A stretch of DNA of 64,000 nt, taken from contig NZ_FNWK01000001.1 of the NCBI RefSeq assembly GCF_900108295.1, positions 434,001-498,000 on the forward strand, given 5' to 3'. Below, one piece after another: positions 23,032 through 32,726 of the stretch. The DNA is from Sphingopyxis sp. YR583. Its GTDB lineage: Bacteria > Pseudomonadota > Alphaproteobacteria > Sphingomonadales > Sphingomonadaceae. The notes under the pieces are model-generated. The model was not told where the DNA came from, made no database searches, and saw nothing but the letters and a program-made list of their open reading frames with translations. Made by a program: the position numbers and the translations under genes. Position 1 is the first letter of the stretch, and each line of letters starts with the position of its first letter.

Positions 23032-23850
23032 TCAGAAGGATGCGGTTACGCTCGCCACGACGGCGGCATCGGCAATAGACCCGCGTCCATCGCCGCCCGT
23101 GCTGAAATTGGGCTGAAGGTACGCAGCTTCGGCCTTGCTTATATCGGTGTCGACATATGAGACATTGAGCGTCAGGTTGCGCCAGGTCGCATCCATACCC
23201 AGCGACCAATCCCAATAGCGTCCGGTCGGCGCAACGCTCGTGCCATTGGGGCCCAGCCCGGGATTGCCGTCCGAATAGCCGATATGCGCCTTTGCCGTCA
23301 GCGGCGTTCCGCCGATCGCCAGCGCGCCATCGCCCCAGAGATAGAGATTATCCTCGCTCTGTCCGCGGCTGTTCGGCGCCGCCGATACGTTCGCGAGCGC
23401 ATATTGCTTTGGCGCATAGGCAACCCCGGCGGTCAGCGTTGCAGGTCCGGTCGTGCCGGTCAGCTTGACATAGGGCTCGGCGAAATCCGATTCATCGGCG
23501 CCGCCCGGATACATGTACCAGACAAGGCCGACGTCGAGCGTCGCATTGTCCGCGACGGGAAGCTTGTAGCCGCCGATCAGGTCGAGCTCCATATTGGCGC
23601 CGCCGAACGTCCCCCAGCCCGCCAGATTGGACCCCCATACCCCGGCATAGAGGCCGCTTTCATGGCTTAGCGTCAACCCGCCCTGCGCCGCCATCCCCTT
23701 GTCGGACTGCGACACGCCGCGAAAACGATAGTCGGACGCGATCGTTGCGGAGCCCGAAATGGTGATGGCCGGTTTCTCTTCCTCTTGCGCAAGGGCGGTG
23801 CCGGGCATCGAGACGGCCGCGATAAAAGCCGCGAATATAAAGCGTTTCAT
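23032..23850 (-). CDS. TorF-type outer-membrane porin
   Basis: Putative 16-stranded-type outer-membrane channel of the family usually named TorF family putative porin. ATG at 23850 has TGAGGAAAAT upstream and gives 272 residues with a clear signal peptide (MKRFIFAAFIAAVSMPGTAL-A-Q). The mature part shows alternating beta strands, with the family block S-D-Y-R-F-R-G-V-S-Q-S and a terminal phenylalanine (V-V-A-S-V-T-A-S-F). It lies downstream of the kdp cluster and is preceded by copy A of a DNA module that also precedes kdp, so potassium-linked expression is inferred. Solute specificity unknown. Confidence 0.9.
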   Translation of the reverse strand: MKRFIFAAFIAAVSMPGTALAQEEEKPAITISGSATIASDYRFRGVSQSDKGMAAQGGLTLSHESGLYAGVWGSNLAGWGTFGGANMELDLIGGYKLPVADNATLDVGLVWYMYPGGADESDFAEPYVKLTGTTGPATLTAGVAYAPKQYALANVSAAPNSRGQSEDNLYLWGDGALAIGGTPLTAKAHIGYSDGNPGLGPNGTSVAPTGRYWDWSLGMDATWRNLTLNVSYVDTDISKAEAAYLQPNFSTGGDGRGSIADAAVVASVTASF

Positions 23851-23924
23851 ATTTTCCTCATGGGTTCGCCCGGCCGGAGTGGCGAAGGGCTCGTGAGGCG
23901 TGCCGACTAGAGCAGCGTCGCGTT

Positions 23925-23972
23925 GAAAATCGAGAGGAGCGAAGCGCCGATCGCATAGTGTTTTCACTATGC
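23925..23972 (-). promoter_or_regulatory. Shared kdp-region upstream module, copy A (porin)
   Basis: On the plus strand: GAAAATCGAGAG at 23925-23936, exactly 16 bases, then the palindrome GCATAGTGTTTTCACTATGC at 23953-23972. Read on the minus strand, the inverted repeat comes first and CTCTCGATTTTC 16 bases later, 75 bases before the porin ATG. The layout fits a response-regulator site overlapping the -35 region, with the -10 in the CTCTCGAAT element. The stop codon of the upstream 106-aa gene (23967-23969) lies inside the palindrome. Confidence 0.65.
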
Positions 23973-24287
23973 GGCGTGGATTTCGCCATGGCCGTTTCCG
24001 GGATGCGCGGGCACCTCGACGGCGCCCGCGGGCACGCGCCGCCAACGCTCCGATACCTCGACGATTTCCCAGAGGCCGGGACCGACGAAGAGCAGCGCGC
24101 TCCCGGCGCTGGCGCAGAGGAAAACAATCGCCGCGAGCAGCATCATAAAGGACGAACTGTCGCGCCCCGATGTGGCAAGCGCGAGCTGATGGAGCCGCAC
24201 TGCGACCGACGAGCCAAGAACGATCAAAGCGCTCCCGCCCGTACGCAAGCCGATATTGGCAGCAAGGCTTTCATGCCATCGTTTCAT
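23967..24287 (-). CDS. Two-helix small membrane protein, hypothetical (106 aa)
   Basis: ATG at 24287 sits 5 bases after GGAGG; the frame extends four codons further to a TTG, which is rejected. The protein has a basic start (MKRWHESLAANIGLRTGG) and two membrane helices at about 16-36 (S-A-L-I-V-L-G-S-S-V-A-V) and 48-72 (M-M-L-L-A-A-I-V-F-L-C-A-S-A). A cytoplasmic or periplasmic tail follows, ending H-P-G-N-G-H-G-E-I-H-A-A. I do not recognise a family. It is preceded by copy B of the module found before kdp, implying co-regulation with potassium uptake. Confidence 0.75.
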   Translation of the reverse strand: MKRWHESLAANIGLRTGGSALIVLGSSVAVRLHQLALATSGRDSSSFMMLLAAIVFLCASAGSALLFVGPGLWEIVEVSERWRRVPAGAVEVPAHPGNGHGEIHAA

Positions 24288-24331
24288 AGAGACCTCCAAA
24301 GGAGGTTATTCACCTACGCATGGGCACGTAG

Positions 24332-24376
24332 GAATTCGAGAGCGGGAAACGGCGCCACGCATTGAGATTGCATATG
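24332..24376 (-). promoter_or_regulatory. Shared kdp-region upstream module, copy B (106-aa protein)
   Basis: GAATTCGAGAG at 24332-24342, exactly 16 bases, then GCATTGAGATTGCATATG at 24359-24376. The GAATTC end is 44 bases before the ATG at 24287 on the minus strand. It matches copies C and D fully in the GAATTCGAGAG element and in the spacer length. Confidence 0.65.
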
Positions 24377-24421
24377 ACCGGGTGAAAAATCGCCCCGTTC
24401 GCTCCCGGATCTTATGTCAGA

Positions 24422-24583
24422 TCAGACCTTGCTCGCCATGTCTGCTAGAAAGGCAATCAGCGCGACGATGGCACACATATAGATCGTCAGGAGCAGGGGG
24501 CCTTGCGCGCCGAGCCAATCGACGATGCGATCTTGCGCGCGCGAAGTTCGGGTGGCGCGGGGTTCGATTTCATGTCCGGTCAT
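24422..24583 (-). CDS. Small single-pass membrane protein, hypothetical (53 aa)
   Basis: ATG at 24583, TGA ending at 24422. The first 27 residues are polar (MTGHEIEPRATRTSRAQDRI); one membrane helix follows at about 29-47 (P-L-L-L-T-I-Y-M-C-A-I-V-A-L-I-A-F-L-A), then a short tail D-M-A-S-K-V. The ribosome binding site is weak (GGGGTGC). The best support is its position: copy C of the kdp-region module lies 28 bases upstream, between the kdpE stop and this ATG, and has no other minus-strand gene to serve. Possibly an accessory or regulatory micropeptide of the potassium response. Confidence 0.55.
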   Translation of the reverse strand: MTGHEIEPRATRTSRAQDRIVDWLGAQGPLLLTIYMCAIVALIAFLADMASKV

Positions 24584-24611
24584 GCACCCCATCTAATGGA
24601 CTGCGCCGTTT

Positions 24612-24656
24612 GAATTCGAGAGCAACCGGCGACATTTCGCATAGCATTTGCATAGG
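24612..24656 (-). promoter_or_regulatory. Shared kdp-region upstream module, copy C (53-aa protein)
   Basis: GAATTCGAGAG at 24612-24622, exactly 16 bases, then GCATAGCATTTGCATAGG at 24639-24656. It lies in the gap between the kdpE stop (24676) and the 53-aa gene, giving that gene its own start site rather than read-through from kdp alone. Confidence 0.65.
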
Positions 24657-24675
24657 ATCGAACCGTCGCGACCGT

Positions 24676-25389
24676 TCAGTTCACCCGGTCACTGTCGTCC
24701 GTGCCGACGCGCAACCGATAACCGATGCCGAGTTCGTTGCAGATGATCTGCGGCTGCTGCGGATCGGCTTCGAGTTTCTGGCGCAGCGTCCGAATGAGAA
24801 CGCGCAGATATTCGACGTGATGCTCATGCTCGTGCGGCCACACCTCGTTCATGATCTGCTTGTGCGTGATGACGCGGCCGGGAAAGCGGGCAAGCTGCGC
24901 CAGCACGGTATATTCCTTGGGCGTCAGATGCACTTCCTTGCCCCCCTTCGTCACCGTGCGCGCGATCATGTCCATCGTCACATCGCCGACAGTCAGCGCA
25001 AGATTGCCGCCGTCGCGCGTCAGCCGGTTGCGGAGCGCGACACGAACGCGCGCGAGCAGTTCGTCGGTGTCGAAGGGCTTGGTCAGATAATCGTCGGCGC
25101 CAAGGTCGAGCGCCGCGACCTTTTCCTCGGTTGCATCGCGCGCCGACACGACGATCAATGTCGTCCCCGACTGCTGCTTGAACAAGGGCACCAGTTCCAG
25201 CCCGTCGCGGTCGGGGAGCCCGAGGTCGAGCAAGGTGATGTCGGGCCGCTCCTCGCGCAGACGCTCGGCCGCCTCGCGCGCATTCGCTGCCTCGACGATC
25301 ATATAGTCGGCGCGTTCCAGCGCCGCGCGGATCAGGCGCCGGATGTGGAGCTCATCATCGACGACGAGAATTTTGTGGCGGACTTTCAT
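24676..25389 (-). CDS. kdpE: Response regulator KdpE
   Basis: OmpR-family transcription factor that activates kdp when K+ is limiting. The receiver domain has the acidic pair D-D at 11-12, phospho-acceptor D55 (L-L-D-L-G-L-P-D) and the conserved K in T-K-P-F. The winged-helix DNA-binding domain (about 140-230) ends R-T-L-R-Q-K-L-E-A-D, I-C-N-E-L-G-I-G-Y-R-L. 237 residues. It overlaps kdpD by ATGA, so kinase and regulator are coupled. It is the likely protein to bind the module found upstream of kdp and three neighbouring genes (inference). Confidence 0.96.
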   Translation of the reverse strand: MKVRHKILVVDDELHIRRLIRAALERADYMIVEAANAREAAERLREERPDITLLDLGLPDRDGLELVPLFKQQSGTTLIVVSARDATEEKVAALDLGADDYLTKPFDTDELLARVRVALRNRLTRDGGNLALTVGDVTMDMIARTVTKGGKEVHLTPKEYTVLAQLARFPGRVITHKQIMNEVWPHEHEHHVEYLRVLIRTLRQKLEADPQQPQIICNELGIGYRLRVGTDDSDRVN

Positions 25390-28055
25390 GGGATGTCCTT
25401 GTCGGTCAGATGGGTGATGATCAGCGCTTCGGGGATACGGATGGTGAAACAGGCGCCGCGTGGATCCTCGTTGTTGCTCGCCTCGACCGACAGCCCCATC
25501 GCCTCTGCGAATCCCTTGACGATGGCAAGCCCGAGCCCGGTGCCATGCTTCACGCGGTCGCTACCCTCGAGGCGGGTGAAGGTTTCGAACACGCGCTTTT
25601 CGTTTCCGGGTGCAATCCCGGGCCCTTCGTCGATGATCGACATGAAGATGGCATCCGCCGCGCGGCGCGCGCGAATGGTTATGGGTGTATCCGCGTCGGC
25701 GTAGCGCCCCGCATTGTCGAGGAGGTTGATCAGGCAATGGTGGAGCAACACCGGATCGACCCGAACTAGCGGAATATTGGGCGAAATGTCGACCTTGACC
25801 TCGTGCCCCGACAGCGATGCCCGCGTGTCGTGCGCCGCGCTGGCGGCGGCGTCGAAAAGGTCGGTGGCCTCGACCTTCATCGGCAACGCGCCCGCTTCGA
25901 CGCGCACCATGTCGAGCAGGTTCGATACGAAACGGTTGAGGCGGAGCGCCTCGGTCTCGATCGTCTCGGCCATTTCGGGCGAGGGATGGCGGCGCATTTC
26001 CTGTGCTGCGGAGAGGATCGTGGTGAGCGGCGTGCGGAGATCATGGCTGACCGATGAGAGCAAGGCCGAGCGCAGCCGGTCACGTTCGCCGACCTGTCGC
26101 GCGTGGAGCGAGACTTCTTCCAATTCCATGCGATCCAGCGCGATCGACGCCTGATCGAGCAGGCTCATCAGCAGCGGCACCTGATCGGAGCGAACGGGCT
26201 CGCGCGCATCGTCGCGGGTCAGTCCGAGTACGCCAAGAACGCCGCGTGTCGTGCGGAGGGGGTGAAATAGCCAATCCGAAGCCGTCAGTGTCGCCGAACC
26301 ACGGCCCGCGGGCAGCGCATGGTCCATCGCCCATTGCGCGGCGGCGCGTTCGATCTGTTCGAGGCGATCCTCGGGCGGCACCGCTGCACGCAGCGTCGGC
26401 CCGTCGGCAGACGGAAGCAGCAGCACGGTCCGGACATCGAGCAGCCGCCCGACCTCGGCGCAAATCGCCTGCATAAGGGTGTCCTGATCGGGCGCGGCGG
26501 TGAGTTGGCGCGAGAAGCTGGCGAGAGCCGCATTCTGCCGCGCACTCGATTGCGCAAGATCGGCCTGCGCCCGCACGCGCGCCGCAAACTGGCTGGTGAC
26601 CACGGCGACGCCGAGCAGTACGAGGATGCTGACGACATTTTCCGGATTGTTGACGGTCAGTGTGCCGGTCGGCGGCAGGAAGAAGAAATTATAGGCGAGG
26701 CTCGACGCGAGGCCCGCGAACAGGCCTGCCCGCACCCCAAAGGTTGCCGCAGCGAACATGACGGGGACCAGATAGAGCAGCGAGATATTGCCGAGGTCGA
26801 TGGCTTCGAGCAGCATACGGCCGAGCGCCGTCATCAGGGCCACCATCGCAAGCGCCAGCAGATAGTCCGACGCCTTGCCCCAACGGCCCGGAACGGCAGT
26901 CGCGCTGCGCGGGACCGCCTTCGCGTCGGGCTCGCCGGGCAGCACATGGACCGCGACGTCGTCGATCGTCCGCACAAGCTGGTCGACGACCGAGCCGTGG
27001 CGCATTTCGAACCACCAGGGGCGCGCCGATTTGCCGATGACGATCTGCGTCGCCCGCGCGTCGGCGGCAAAGGCGCGGAGCCCTTCGACGACGCTGGCGG
27101 CGGGGACGGTCGCGGTCGAAGCGCCGAGCCGCGAGGCGAGCGCGAGCGTGTCGGCGAGCTGACGGCGGTCGTCGTCGGTCATGCCCTGACTGCGCCGCGT
27201 CTCGATATAGACCGCGCTCCACGGCGCTTTCAGCGCATCGGCGAGGCGCTTCCCCGCACGGACAAGCTCGGCGGCGACGGGCAGTTCGCTGACCGCGACG
27301 ACGATCCGCTCGCCCACCGCGAAACTGCCAGCCAATGCATGAGATCGCACATGGTCGAGCATCTGCGCATCGACCGCCTGCGCCGCACGGCGGAGGGCAA
27401 GTTCGCGCAGCGCGGTGAGGTTCGATTTGGAAAAGAAATGGGTGAGCGCGCGCGTCGCTTCCTGCGGGATATAGACCTTGCCGTCGCGCAGCCGCTCGAT
27501 CAGCTCGTCGGGCGGAATGTCGACGACCTCGATCTCGGCATTTTCGAGGATCGAGTCGGGCACCGTCTCGCGGACGCGGACGCGGGTGAAGGACGCCACG
27601 ACGTCGTTGAGGCTCTCGACATGCTGGATATTGATCGTCGAATAGACGTCGATCCCTGCACCCAGCAGTTCCTCCACATCCTGATAGCGTTTGGGGTGGC
27701 GACTGCCCGGCGCATTCGTGTGCGCGAGTTCATCGACAAGCACCAGCTGCGGGCGGCGTTCGAGGATCGCGTCGATGTCCATTTCACCAAGGCTGTGTCC
27801 CTGATGCTCGACCTGACGTCGCGCGATGATCTCGTGACCCTCGACCAGCGCCTCGGTCTCGCGCCGCCCGTGCGTCTCGACCACGCCGATCACGACATCG
27901 ACCCCGGCCTCGCGGCGATGCCGGCCGTCGGTAAGCATCTCCCACGTCTTGCCGACGCCGGGCGCGGCGCCGAGAAAGACCTTGAGACGGCCACGGCCTT
28001 CCTGCGCCGCCTGACGCAGGAAGGCCTCTGGAGATGGTCGATCATTTCCTGTCAC
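25386..28055 (-). CDS. kdpD: Sensor histidine kinase KdpD
   Basis: Membrane sensor of K+ limitation and turgor. In order: KdpD N-terminal domain (about 20-230) with Walker [10 protein letters not shown] at 29-37 and L-V-D-E-L-A-H-T-N; a universal-stress-like domain (about 250-375); four closely spaced DUF4118 membrane helices (about 395-495); a GAF-like region; HisKA with phospho-acceptor H671 in [10 protein letters not shown]; and an HATPase domain with D-E-G-P-G-I-A and G-T-G-L-G-L-A-I-V. 889 residues, full length. ATGA overlaps link it to kdpC upstream and kdpE downstream. Confidence 0.97.
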
Positions 28056-28648
28056 GCGGCGGGTTTAGCCCCAAAAGCATCGAGCCGTCGATTGAGCTTG
28101 AACACATTGACGCGCGGCTCGCCGAGGAAGCCGAGCAGCGGCTTGTCGACGCTCCGTTCGACCAGCCCGCGCACGGCATCCGGTGCCAGTCCCCGCGCCC
28201 GCGCGACGCGATCGACCTGATAGAAGGCAGCCTCGGGGGTGATGTCGGGATCGAGCCCCGACCCCGAAGCGGTAACGAGATCGGCCGGGACCGCCTTGCC
28301 GGGCTCCAACTCCTTCATCTTCGCGACATCGCCCTTCACCCGGTCCGCCAGCACCTGCGACGTCGGCCCAAGGTTCGAGCCTGACGAGGCCAGCCCATCA
28401 TAGCCTTTGCCCGCCGCCGACGGACGCGTGTTGAAATAGCGTTCCGACGTGAAGGCCTGCCCGACGACGGTCGAACCGACGACCTTGCCATTCTCTTCGA
28501 CAAGGCTGCCGTTCGCCTGGTTCGGGAACAGCGCCTGCCCGATGCCGGTGAGCGCCAGCGGGTAGGCGAGCCCGAGGAGCAGCGCGAAGAGCAGCGTCAT
28601 AACCAGCGCCGGACGCAGCGAGGTGGTGAAATCCTTGTTCATTGTCAT
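28052..28648 (-). CDS. kdpC: Potassium-transporting ATPase subunit KdpC
   Basis: Single-helix periplasmic subunit that stabilises the KdpFABC pump and raises its affinity. 198 residues: membrane helix at about 12-34 ([17 protein letters not shown]), then the family blocks [23 protein letters not shown] and [14 protein letters not shown]. It starts 4 bases after kdpB and overlaps kdpD by 4 bases. Confidence 0.97.
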
Positions 28649-28652
28649 TTCC

Positions 28653-30695
28653 TCAGACGAGACCCAGGCCGCCGACGGCGAGGTCGATCAGCTTGATGCC
28701 GACAAAAGGTGCCACGAGGCCGCCAAGGCCATAGACGGCGAGGTTGCGGGCAAGCAGCGGCCCGGCGCCCATCGGGCGATAGGCGACGCCCTTCAGCGCG
28801 AGCGGCACGAGCAGCGGGATGATCAACGCGTTGAAGATGATCGCCGACAGGATCGCGCTCTCGGGACTGGTCAGCCCCATGACGTTGAGCACGCCCAATC
28901 CGGGATACAGCACGATGAACATCGCCGGGATGATCGCGAAATATTTGGCGACATCATTGGCGACCGAAAAGGTCGTGAGCGCGCCGCGCGTCATCAACAG
29001 CTGCTTGCCGAGCCCGACAACCTCGATCAGCTTGGTCGGATCGCTGTCGAGATCGACCATATTGCCCGCCTCGCGCGCCGCCTGCGTGCCGGTGTTCATC
29101 GCGACGCCGACGTCAGCCTGTGCGAGCGCCGGCGCGTCGTTCGTACCGTCGCCGCACATCGCGACGAGCCGTCCCCCCGCCTGCTCCTTGCGGATCAGCT
29201 CGAGCTTGTCCTCGGGCGTCGCCTGCGCGAGGAAATCGTCGACCCCGGCCTCAGCGGCAATGGCGGAGGCGGTGAGCGGATTGTCGCCTGTGATCATCAC
29301 GGTGCGGATGCCCATCGCGCGTAGTTCGCCGAAGCGTTCGCGGATGCCCGCCTTGACGATGTCCTTGAGGAAAATCGCACCAAGCAATTGGCCATCCTTG
29401 GCGACCGCAAGCGGAGTGCCGCCGGCGCGCGCAATCTCGTCGGTGATACGGCGGAGCTCGGTCGCGGCGGCGGTTGCCCCCGCACCCGGATTGGCCTTGA
29501 GGACCGAATCCACTGCCCCCTTCTGGATCACGCTGTCACCCAGCTTGATGCCCGAGATGCGGGTTTGCGCGGTGAACGGGACGATCTCGGCGCCGTTCGG
29601 CAATTCGGTCCGCGTCTGGCCGAATTTCTCACACGCCAGCGCGACGATCGAGCGGCCCTCGGGGGTTTCGTCGGCGAGGCTGGCGAGCAGCGCGGCCTCC
29701 GAAAGCACCGCCATCGATTGGCCGCCGACCGGGCGGAACTCGGTCGCCTGACGGTCGCCGACGGTGATCGTGCCGGTCTTGTCGAGCAGCAGGACATCGA
29801 TGTCGCCCGCGGCCTCGACCGCGCGGCCCGACTTTGCGAGCACGTTGAAGCGCACGAGGCGGTCCATCCCCGCGATGCCGATCGCGGATAGCAAGGCCGC
29901 GATCGTCGTCGGGATCAGCGTGATCAGCAGCGCCGCGAGGATCGCGACGGGAATGCTTCCGCCCGCATAATTTGCAAAGCTGGGGATCGTGCCGACTGCG
30001 ATCAGGAAGATGATCGTGAGGCCGACGAGCAACAGTGTCAGCGCGATTTCGTTCGGCGTCTTCTGCCGCTCGGCACCTTCGACGAGCGCGATCATCCGGT
30101 CGAGGAAACCCTGTCCCGGATTGACCGTGACCTGCACGCGGATTTCATCGGAGATGACGCGCGTGCCGGCGGTCACCGCCGAGCGGTCGCCGCCCGCCTC
30201 GCGGATCACGGGCGCGCTTTCGCCGGTGATCGCCGCTTCGTTGACCGAGGCGACACCCGCAACGACTTCGCCGTCCGACGGGATCAGGTCGCCTGTCTGG
30301 ACGAGCACGACATCGCCCACCCGGAGCGCGCTGGCGGGAACGCTCTCGTAGGCATTGCCATCGCCCTTGAGTTTTTTGGCGATCAAATCGGCCTTGGTCG
30401 CGCGCAGCGATGCGGCCTGCGCCTTGCCGCGCCCTTCGGCGAGCGCTTCGGCGAAGGTGCCGAAGAGCACCGTCAGCCAGAGCCAGATCACGAGTTGCAG
30501 CTTGAAGCCGGTCGCAAGGCCGTCGTGGCCGACGACGAGCAACACCGTCAGCAGCGCCGCGACGACCGCGGTGGTGAACATCACCGGGTTGCGGATCAGT
30601 TCCTTCGGGTTGAGTTTGCGGAAGGCGTCGCCGATCGCCGGAACGACCAGCTCTGCCGTGAACAGGGACTTGGTTTGAGGCCGAGCCATTTGCAA
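28653..30695 (-). CDS. kdpB: Potassium-transporting ATPase subunit KdpB (P-type ATPase)
   Basis: ATP-hydrolysing subunit of the high-affinity K+ uptake pump. 680 residues. The phosphorylated aspartate is D305 in [10 protein letters not shown]. The actuator-domain T-G-E-S block reads A-I-T-G-E-S-A-P-V, and the hinge [12 protein letters not shown] is intact. The ion-path block in the fourth membrane segment ([16 protein letters not shown]) is also present. It lies 6 bases after kdpA in the standard kdpFABC order. Confidence 0.98.
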
Positions 30696-30701
30696 TTATC
30701 C

Positions 30702-32405
30702 TTAGAAAAGCTGGCCATTGATCATCGCGAGATGATCGGCGACGGGACCGAGCGCGAGGCTGGGCAGGAAGGTCAGCCCGCCGACGATCAGCACGATGCC
30801 GACCAGCAGGCCCGTCCACAGCAGCCCGGTGGTCGGGAAGCTGCCCGCGGTTTCCGGCGTATATTTCTTCGCCGCCAGACCGCCTGCGATCGCCAGCATC
30901 GGGATGATGATGAAGAAGCGGCCTACCCACATCGCAAGGCCGAGCAGGCCGTTGTAGAAGGGTGTGTTGGCGGTAAGCCCGGCAAAGGCCGACCCGTTGT
31001 TCCCCACCGCGCTGGTGAAGGCGTAGAGGATCTCCGAAAAGCCATGCGGTCCCTTGTTGAGCGGACCCGCCAGCCCCGCCTCGGTGACCGATGCGATCGC
31101 GGTGAAGCCGAGGATGATGAGCGGAAGGACGGCGATCGCAAGTACCGCAAGTTTGACCTCACGCGCCTCGATCTTCTTGCCGACATATTCGGGGGTGCGC
31201 CCGACCATCAGCCCGGCGACGAACACCGCGAGGATGGCAAACAGCAGGAAGCCATAGATGCCCGCTCCGACGCCGCCGATGACGACTTCGCCTAGCTGGA
31301 TGTTGAGCAGCGGGATCATGCCGCCGAGCGCGGTGAAGCTGTCGTGCATCGCGTTCACCGCGCCGCACGATGCCGCGGTGGTAACGACAGAGAAGAGCGC
31401 CGATGCGGCGATGCCGAAGCGAACTTCCTTGCCCTCCATATTGCCGCCGGCGGCACCGAGCTGGTGGAGGATCGGGTTGCCGGCAGCTTCCTGCCAATAG
31501 GTGATGGTGACCCCGGCGAGGAAGATCGTAACCATCGCGGCGAGGATCGCCCAGCCCTGGCGCGGGTTGCCGACGGCTTTGCCGAAGGTCCAGGTCAGCC
31601 CGGTGCCGATCAGGAAGATCGACAGCATCTGGACGAGGTTGGTGAGGGCGGTCGGGTTCTCGAACGGATGCGCGCTGTTGACGTTGAAGAAACCGCCGCC
31701 ATTCGTGCCGAGCAGCTTGATCGCTTCCTGCGACGCGACCGGGCCCAGCGCCAGTGTCTGCTTCACGCCTTCGAGCGTCGTCACATCGACCGAACCCGCC
31801 AGCGTCTGCGGCACGCCGCTCGCGATATAGAAGATCGCGATGACGATGCAGAGCGGCAGCAGCAGGTAGAGCGTCACCCGCGTCATATCGGCCCAGAAAT
31901 TCCCGATCGTCTTCATCTCGCGCCGGGCAAAGCCGCGAAACAAGGCAAAGGCGAGCGCGATGCCCGTCGCGGCCGACAGGAAATTGTGGATCGTGAGGCC
32001 AAGCATCTGGCTGAGGTTCGACATCGTCGATTCACCGCCATAGCTCTGCCAGTTGGTGTTGGTGGTAAAGCTGATCGCGGTGTTGAAAGCCAGATCCGCG
32101 CTCGTGCCGTCATAACCAAGCGGATTGAGCGGCAGTCCGCCCTGCAGGCGCAGGACCGCATAGGTGAAGAGCGCCAGCACCGCGTTGAAGATCAGCATAT
32201 GGACCGCGTAACGGCGCCATCCCTGCTCTTCATTCGGGTCGATCCCCGACAGACGGTAAAAACCCGTTTCGACCGGCCCGAATATGCGGTGCAGCGGCGT
32301 CCGGCGCCCTTCGTAGAGCGCGAAAAGCCATTGCCCCATGGGCTTGCAGAGCAAGAGCAGGATCGCGATGAACGCGATGATGAGACACCATCCCTGAAAG
32401 GTCAT
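30702..32405 (-). CDS. kdpA: Potassium-transporting ATPase subunit KdpA
   Basis: K+-binding and translocating subunit, related to Trk/Ktr channels. 567 residues with about ten membrane helices. Selectivity-filter-like loops are visible, including [33 protein letters not shown] and [13 protein letters not shown]. The start [20 protein letters not shown] is normal. Preceded by kdpF and a 27-aa peptide. Confidence 0.98.
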
Positions 32406-32417
32406 GGCTGCCCCCCC

Positions 32418-32507
32418 TTAAAAGCGTTCGGGCCGTGCAAGCACGGCGACGAGATAGAAAAGAAGGCCAAGCGCGGTGAGACCCGCCAGCCAGAGGTCGA
32501 GTGTCAT
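32418..32507 (-). CDS. kdpF: Potassium-transporting ATPase subunit KdpF (29 aa)
   Basis: The smallest Kdp subunit, a single helix that stabilises the complex like a lipid. ATG at 32507 behind AAGGA gives 29 residues: M-T-L-D-L-W-L-A-G-L-T-A-L-G-L-L-F-Y-L-V, then A-V-L-A-R-P-E-R-F. The helix followed by R-P-E-x-F is the KdpF hallmark. It lies 12 bases before kdpA. Confidence 0.92.
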   Translation of the reverse strand: MTLDLWLAGLTALGLLFYLVAVLARPERF

Positions 32508-32518
32508 GGCGTCATTCC

Positions 32519-32602
32519 TTATGCGTCGTCGCACAGCCGCGCGTAGCCAAGGCTGGCGGCGAGCAAGGCGAGGATGGTGCCGACCCAGATGAGATCCTGC
32601 AT
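32519..32602 (-). CDS. 27-aa membrane micropeptide at the head of the kdp operon
   Basis: ATG at 32602, 6 bases after GGAG; TAA at 32519-32521, 11 bases before kdpF. Sequence M-Q-D-L-I-W-V-G-T-I-L-A-L-L-A-A-S-L-G-Y, then A-R-L-C-D-D-A: one short membrane helix and an acidic end. It is the first reading frame after promoter module D. It resembles KdpF in size but lacks the R-P-E-x-F end. Either an extra KdpF-like helper subunit or a translated leader; the good ribosome binding site argues that it is made. Confidence 0.7.
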   Translation of the reverse strand: MQDLIWVGTILALLAASLGYARLCDDA

Positions 32603-32681
32603 GGTTTGCTCCAGCAAGACGCTGGCCACGGGGTGTGGCACGAGTCGTCTGCGGAGCTTGAAATAGGAGAGCGCCGCATTT

Positions 32682-32726
32682 GAATTCGAGAGAGCGAAAA
32701 CGTCCCCCGCATAGTATTTTCATATG
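32682..32726 (-). promoter_or_regulatory. Shared kdp-region upstream module, copy D (kdp operon)
   Basis: GAATTCGAGAG at 32682-32692, exactly 16 bases, then GCATAGTATTTTCATATG at 32709-32726. Read on the minus strand, the near-palindrome comes first and CTCTCGAATTC follows, 79 bases before the first ATG (32602). As the only module in front of kdpFABCDE it is the natural candidate for the KdpE-dependent promoter. The stretch 32727-32957 beyond it shows no supported gene. Confidence 0.7.

Follow-up and report, generated by a model that had tools for sequence, protein, structure and literature searches.

The kdp locus of Sphingopyxis sp. YR583, in which one short element recurs upstream of several genes, lies within a 64,000-nucleotide stretch of contig NZ_FNWK01000001.1 (positions 434,001 to 498,000), referred to here as the window; coordinates are counted from its first letter. 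The genes are transcribed from the minus strand in the order kdpFABCDE, a gene for a 53-amino-acid (aa) membrane protein (p53), a gene for a 106-aa membrane protein (p106), and a porin gene of the TorF (Gcw_chp) family. kdpF (32418..32507) is recognized by Pfam PF09604, and kdpA (30702..32405) by a PF03814 match at this place in its own genome; the two open reading frames (ORFs) that follow (28653..30695 and 28052..28648) keep their order in relatives, and we take them to be kdpB and kdpC. The sensor kinase gene kdpD (25386..28055) matches PF02702, DUF4118, HisKA and HATPase_c. The product of kdpE (24676..25389), a response regulator encoded beside kdpD and the pump genes, has a receiver and a winged-helix domain (Response_reg and Trans_reg_C); KdpE is its best NCBIfam model, although below the cut-off, and its best PDB match, and it is the presumed binder of the element described below. 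By eye the ORFs of p53 (24422..24583) and p106 (23967..24287) encode one and two transmembrane segments respectively, and searches of Pfam and NCBIfam gave no family above cut-off for either protein. The porin (23032..23850) matches PF09694 at 170.4 bits (cut-off 24) and TIGR02001 at 141.3 (cut-off 47.15).

Four copies of the element are present in the window, upstream of kdpF, p53, p106 and the porin gene, and reading of the sequence confirms what a preliminary description had reported, namely that each lies, at the coordinates it gave, on the minus strand in front of a minus-strand gene. In the direction of transcription the element reads CTATGC (CAATGC before p106), 16 bases, and then CTCTCGAATTC, with CTCTCGATTTTC in the porin copy; the 16-base spacer between the final ATGC and CTCTCGA is exact in all four. 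The left part was formerly described as an inverted repeat, but this is clean only in the porin copy, as a 9 bp repeat (CGCATAGTG-AAAA-CACTATGCG), and it is better read as a direct repeat with an 11 bp period, TAYGC-N6-TATGC. This repeat is present with no more than one mismatch upstream of kdpF (32709..32724, composed of TATGA at 32724-32720 and TATGC at 32713-32709), p53 (24639..24654, TATGC-N6-TATGC) and p106 (24359..24374, TATGC-N6-AATGC); the corresponding porin segment is at 23953..23968. These four candidate KdpE boxes are taken from the sequence and a consensus score, and all four are also picked by the profile described below. A half-site repeat with a 7-base gap was tried and rejected as the wrong register (25 in the window against 29.1 expected), the 6-base gap being the right one.

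The window contains the pattern WAYGC-N16-CTCTCGAWTY exactly four times, at the four copies; 0.03 are expected by chance, and at least four were found in none of 100 shuffles. Neither a similar pattern allowing up to three mismatches (22 found, 19.2 expected) nor CTCTCGAATTC alone with two mismatches allowed (16 against 22.8) rises above chance level in the window, so that the signal is the combination of the parts at fixed spacing. All four copies lie within 9 kb, as would be expected of recent local duplications without function. By eye, however, their spacers are unrelated, and the copies therefore lack the look of recent duplicates; a fifth copy on another contig and conservation over several genera further contradict an origin of this kind, to which we give almost no credence.

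The fifth copy emerges from the whole genome, in which MWATGC-N16-CTCTCGANTT has five exact matches: the four in the window and one on contig C2 (G000:C2:745506-745537, where G000 is the genome of the window). This site is upstream of genes for a 151-aa and an 86-aa protein. The 151-aa product has a weak methyltransferase likeness (E = 0.18), and a protein of genome G057 that resembles it by eye matches at E = 2.9e-5, still below the family cut-off. The regulon called local in the preliminary description is therefore drawn too narrowly. A sequence-only profile was built from 62 aligned sites out of 66 non-redundant ones, all from genomes other than that of the window, with four odd sites (L078:4435, L090:16480, L043:4112 and L081:972) omitted by choice. 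On the 4.3-Mb genome it returns exactly the five sites, with E values from 2.4e-14 to 2.5e-10, the next matches being at 0.164 and 0.457; the motif is rare in this genome outside the five sites. A 57-bp matrix made only from kdpF sites was set aside, as it scored several genuine sites at other promoters negatively. Three TorF genes are present in the genome, and only the one adjacent to kdp has a profile match; the other two lie in tandem without the element (G000:C1:949896-951564). The loose pattern with three mismatches is uninformative at this scale (202 matches in the whole genome, against 93 when read backwards). ATGC-N16-CTCTCGAWTT occurs exactly in one of 149 sampled genomes of the family, the window's own, with three of the 149 belonging to its genus.

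The repeated element is real and evolutionarily conserved, as is seen at related kdp loci. A KdpD search gave 77 loci, of which 75 were used (L021-L095); the other two (L096 and L097), with records under the names Chloroflexi and Clostridiales, were excluded. Loci with KdpE identity of at least 75% were called type A, like the window (n = 25), with 48 more distant sphingomonad loci assigned to type B and two unclassified. The consensus score, which combines the two half-sites with TCTCGA, gives 124 matches at 15.5 or above in 1,553,478 bases of these loci and two in the reversed sequences; at 16 or above there are 116 and none. Most of the latter matches (106/116) lie within 620 bp upstream, on the same strand, of kdpF, kdpA, p53, p106, the porin gene or the methyltransferase-like gene.

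Counting genes that have at least 300 bp upstream and taking sites of at least 15.5, the element precedes the orthologues of all four window genes. It is found before kdpF in 22/22 type A, 5/18 type B and 0/1 unclassified loci, before p106 in 21/21 and 7/8 of types A and B, before p53, which was counted in type A only, in 14/16, and before the porin gene in 6/9 type A, 28/30 type B and 1/1 unclassified loci. Sub-threshold candidates are present at two of the three type A porin genes that were missed (L021, 14.4; L028, 15.4) and at the type B ones (14.8 and 15.1). In 30 of the 48 type B loci the porin gene immediately precedes kdpF in the same orientation, in most cases behind the same element, and thus the porin shares the element both as the head of the kdp operon and as a lone gene after kdpE. 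For the methyltransferase-like gene, no site at 15.5 was counted within 460 bp in any of six loci: the L067 site lies beyond that limit and was assigned in the site alignment, sites in L029, L068, L086 and L089 are visible but score below 15.5, and none was seen before this gene in L090. The L090 locus (Sphingomonas, Root710) contains a number of candidate sites, and three of these score 16.4-17.8 with no assigned gene nearby.

Among the 149 family genomes, 27 match the profile at 0.01 or better, of which the weakest (0.002-0.009) may be chance. Eight further sites from the family (L173-L180) were read, and five of them could be assigned to genes judged by eye: a methyltransferase-like gene follows L173 and L178, a gene for a p106-like protein follows L177 and L179, and kdpA follows L180. 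A sample of 190 genomes of the class (KdpA matches 34, TorF 37) gave no case of KdpA and TorF side by side beyond the family; among the places listed, only the genome of the window has both within 10 kb.

We note also a short hairpin, CCTCC-loop-GGAGG, that directly precedes the p106 start codon and includes the ribosome site (24292-24306, minus strand). Its stem has other letters in some type B relatives, and it reaches z <= -2 against shuffles in 12 of 23 relatives folded singly; L025 is without it and L061 folds differently. Between the promoter and kdpF there is a 30-codon ORF (MQDLIW..., MQDLIWVGTILAILALLAASLGYARLCDDA; 32510..32602, minus strand), which is perhaps a further small Kdp peptide. 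A similar start is present in genome G199 and at a third kdp subtype, both considered below.

Alignment of the sites at TCTCGA reveals conserved columns outside those used for picking them. A CCTAAT-like block is present at +24 to +29 from TCTCGA; of 107 distinct sites, 89 carry [CG]TA[AGT] at an offset of 24 or 25. The simplest reading is that TCTCGA is the -35 and the CCTAAT-like block the -10, with 18 bp between them. The putative -35 elements in the window are at 32686..32691 (kdp), 24616..24621 (p53), 24336..24341 (p106) and 23930..23935 (porin), all on the minus strand; that of kdp is matched by a putative -10, CCTATT, at 32662..32667, and the others by a weak -10-like ATTAGA (24597-24592), by GTAGGT (24317-24312) and by TCTAGT (23911-23906). 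If transcription starts 6-7 bases after this -10, the repeat would lie at about -69 to -54, and the p53 transcript is predicted to start approximately 2 nt before its ATG. A further block, WAYG, is conserved at +11 to +14 from TCTCGA, between the putative -35 and -10 (23921-23924, 24327-24330, 24607-24610 and 32677-32680, minus strand). It is 33 bp, or three turns, from the second half-site and may be a third weak half-site.

The preliminary description had placed KdpE over the -35 region with CTCTCGAAT as the -10, a layout that would be of the class II, PhoB-like kind. The exact spacing from the repeat to CTCTCGA in the window would suit this layout, and TCGAAT shares four letters with TATAAT. 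It leaves aside the separate CCTAAT-like block 18 bp downstream, which those 89 sites share across four promoter classes that are unrelated to one another and which was conserved without having been used to pick the sites, and therefore CTCTCGAAT is very probably not the -10. In addition, the spacer between the repeat and TCTCGA varies among the sites, being either 17 or 16 bases, whereas the distance from TCTCGA to CCTAAT is the same in both. With TCTCGA at the -35 the presumed KdpE box falls upstream of the -35 and not over it, and we consider the earlier layout very unlikely.

The element also tracks the subtype of KdpE within the genus. At a profile threshold of 1e-4, 41 of 80 genus genomes have a match (126 matches in all), including 37/37 with a KdpE of at least 77% identity, 3/17 with a more distant KdpE, and 1/26 without a KdpE hit. 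Many of these genomes are probably of species that gave profile sites, and several have sites with identical letters; the comparison is therefore one of co-occurrence and not a held-out test. A strict pattern is matched 48 times, in 31 of the 80 genomes, and its backward reading gives no match. The single match without a KdpE hit, in G199, looks like a natural kdp deletion in which the promoter survives. The beginning of an altered form of the small ORF that otherwise precedes kdpF is also still there, and kdpA and kdpE were not found in this genome. By eye the left-over promoter and ORF (L133, G199:C14:90500-95500) are followed by a TonB-receptor-like gene.

A third kdp subtype is seen in the genus (L186, L187 and L188), with kdpD on the opposite strand and a KdpE of 58-60% identity. 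The promoters of these three loci contain TTTATGG-TTTATGC-like repeats of the same period, and there are three TTTAYG half-sites, the third of which (TTTACG) is further down, between the presumed -35 and -10. The letters of these half-sites are intermediate between the E. coli and the window versions, which favors KdpE as the protein that reads the repeats.

These relationships bear on whether the genes are driven, along with kdp, by a different OmpR/PhoB-group regulator or by an alternative sigma factor that would read TATGC as its -35 and TCTCGA as its -10. The element does have a two-box look with spacing of 16-17 bp, and kdpE is the only response regulator of the genome that was considered. 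Nonetheless, a two-box sigma promoter leaves the third conserved block unexplained, and neither alternative fits well with an element that accompanies the KdpE subtype in all 37 genomes, with the similar repeats found in the third kdp subtype, or with an 11 bp direct repeat whose presumed position is that of E. coli KdpE; we regard both as unlikely.

We favor with good confidence a reading of each copy as a KdpE-activated sigma-70-type promoter, the five together forming one regulon, and on the sequence evidence the element very probably lets KdpE turn on the porin and small membrane proteins in addition to the K+ pump in this group of soil and water bacteria. The regulon put forward at the outset (the kdp operon, the porin and two small membrane proteins) stands in that its members share one element that is conserved, rare elsewhere and associated with the KdpE subtype, although the binding of KdpE to it is something that we infer. 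A plausible scenario is that K+ shortage or osmotic stress is sensed by KdpD and leads to phosphorylated KdpE, which would bind the two 5 bp half-sites (TAYGC-N6-TATGC), one helical turn apart, and assist RNA polymerase at a promoter whose -35 (TCTCGA) is poor and whose -10 is CCTAAT-like. The promoters activated would be those of kdpF(ABCDE), p53, p106, the TorF porin and, on the other contig, the weakly methyltransferase-like gene with its small membrane protein. The likely purpose is that the porin opens the outer membrane to K+ while the high-affinity pump is made. As to the broader proposal of a sphingomonad regulon dedicated to K+ starvation, in which KdpE would induce, along with the pump, its own outer-membrane K+ porin and, as K+-scavenging accessories, two or three small membrane proteins and a methyltransferase-like protein, we see the chances as evenly balanced.

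Several observations weigh against KdpE as the reader of a five-promoter regulon. In the window TAYGC-N6-TAYGC alone is not enriched (120 against 167.9 expected, two mismatches allowed) and there are three perfect half-site repeats elsewhere; the first half-site of the porin copy is degenerate (AGTGA), with only the second (TATGC) being good; and a simple combined score gives three other places in the window 15.8-16.0, close to the 16.4 of the porin site, although the profile does not pick them. At the related loci the reversed control fills up below 15.5 (198 matches against 45 reversed at 14.5), and no porin was found in 16/25 type A and 18/48 type B loci, some of which are cut by contig ends. 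The low kdpF count in type B fits the gene order, with the porin gene directly before kdpF in 30 of these 48 loci and the site before the porin gene. Related genomes are not independent, and so the locus counts overstate the evidence, a weakness from which the presence of one element at four different promoters of a single genome is free. The KdpE protein itself scores 212.6 bits against an equivalog cut-off of 325 for NCBIfam NF007820, its best model nonetheless. Of the recognition residues of E. coli KdpE, R193 and R200 correspond to R196 and R203 here, with the offset derived from the alignment, but T215, which is needed in E. coli, aligns with N218. Fourteen of the 17 genomes with a more distant KdpE are without a profile match, and the three such proteins that were read keep the same arginines.

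Among the papers that our searches listed, we found no title or abstract opening on a KdpE regulon with a porin or on sphingomonad kdp promoters. We place the arrangement with regulons of a known kind, in which KdpE controls more than the pump operon. One KdpE-type element heading five transcription units differs from the one-operon regulator described for E. coli (PMC7657598). The link between kdp and the TorF porin is visible twice, in the shared promoters and in the porin gene directly before kdpF in relatives, and it suggests a testable substrate and function both for a porin family whose function Pfam gives as unknown and for small membrane proteins without a family. Outer-membrane K+ permeability becomes a candidate regulated step, and the site profile can be used to annotate the regulon across the Sphingomonadales.

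The PhoB regulon, defined by the Pho box, is small and scattered, is controlled by an OmpR/PhoB-family regulator and includes the outer-membrane porin PhoE, and in these features the proposed regulon resembles it; the Pho box replaces the -35, whereas here the presumed box would lie upstream of it. In Caulobacter crescentus, another alphaproteobacterium, the kdpFABCDE operon is induced at low K+; its known promoter, unlike those proposed here, is sigma-T dependent, and the authors of that work suspect a second, KdpDE-regulated promoter that is not yet identified (PMC8552747); the words porin and outer membrane are absent from the main text of that paper. Another parallel is E. coli kdpFABC, where the KdpE element is footprinted from -72 to -50 and contains two 6 bp direct repeats, TTTATA and TTTACA, 5 bp apart (PMC3264566). 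The two share direct half-sites with an 11 bp period, the same operon and the same recognition-helix arginines, and the distance from the repeat to the start would be similar if the CCTAAT-like block is the -10. They differ in the half-sites (TAYGC or CTATGC-like rather than TTTAYA), in TCTCGA at the -35 and in the asparagine in place of T215, as well as in the five promoters proposed here, where kdpFABC has been called the sole target of E. coli KdpE, to which a study with 31 ChIP-exo peaks has added adeP, uxaA and uxaC as direct targets (PMC7657598).

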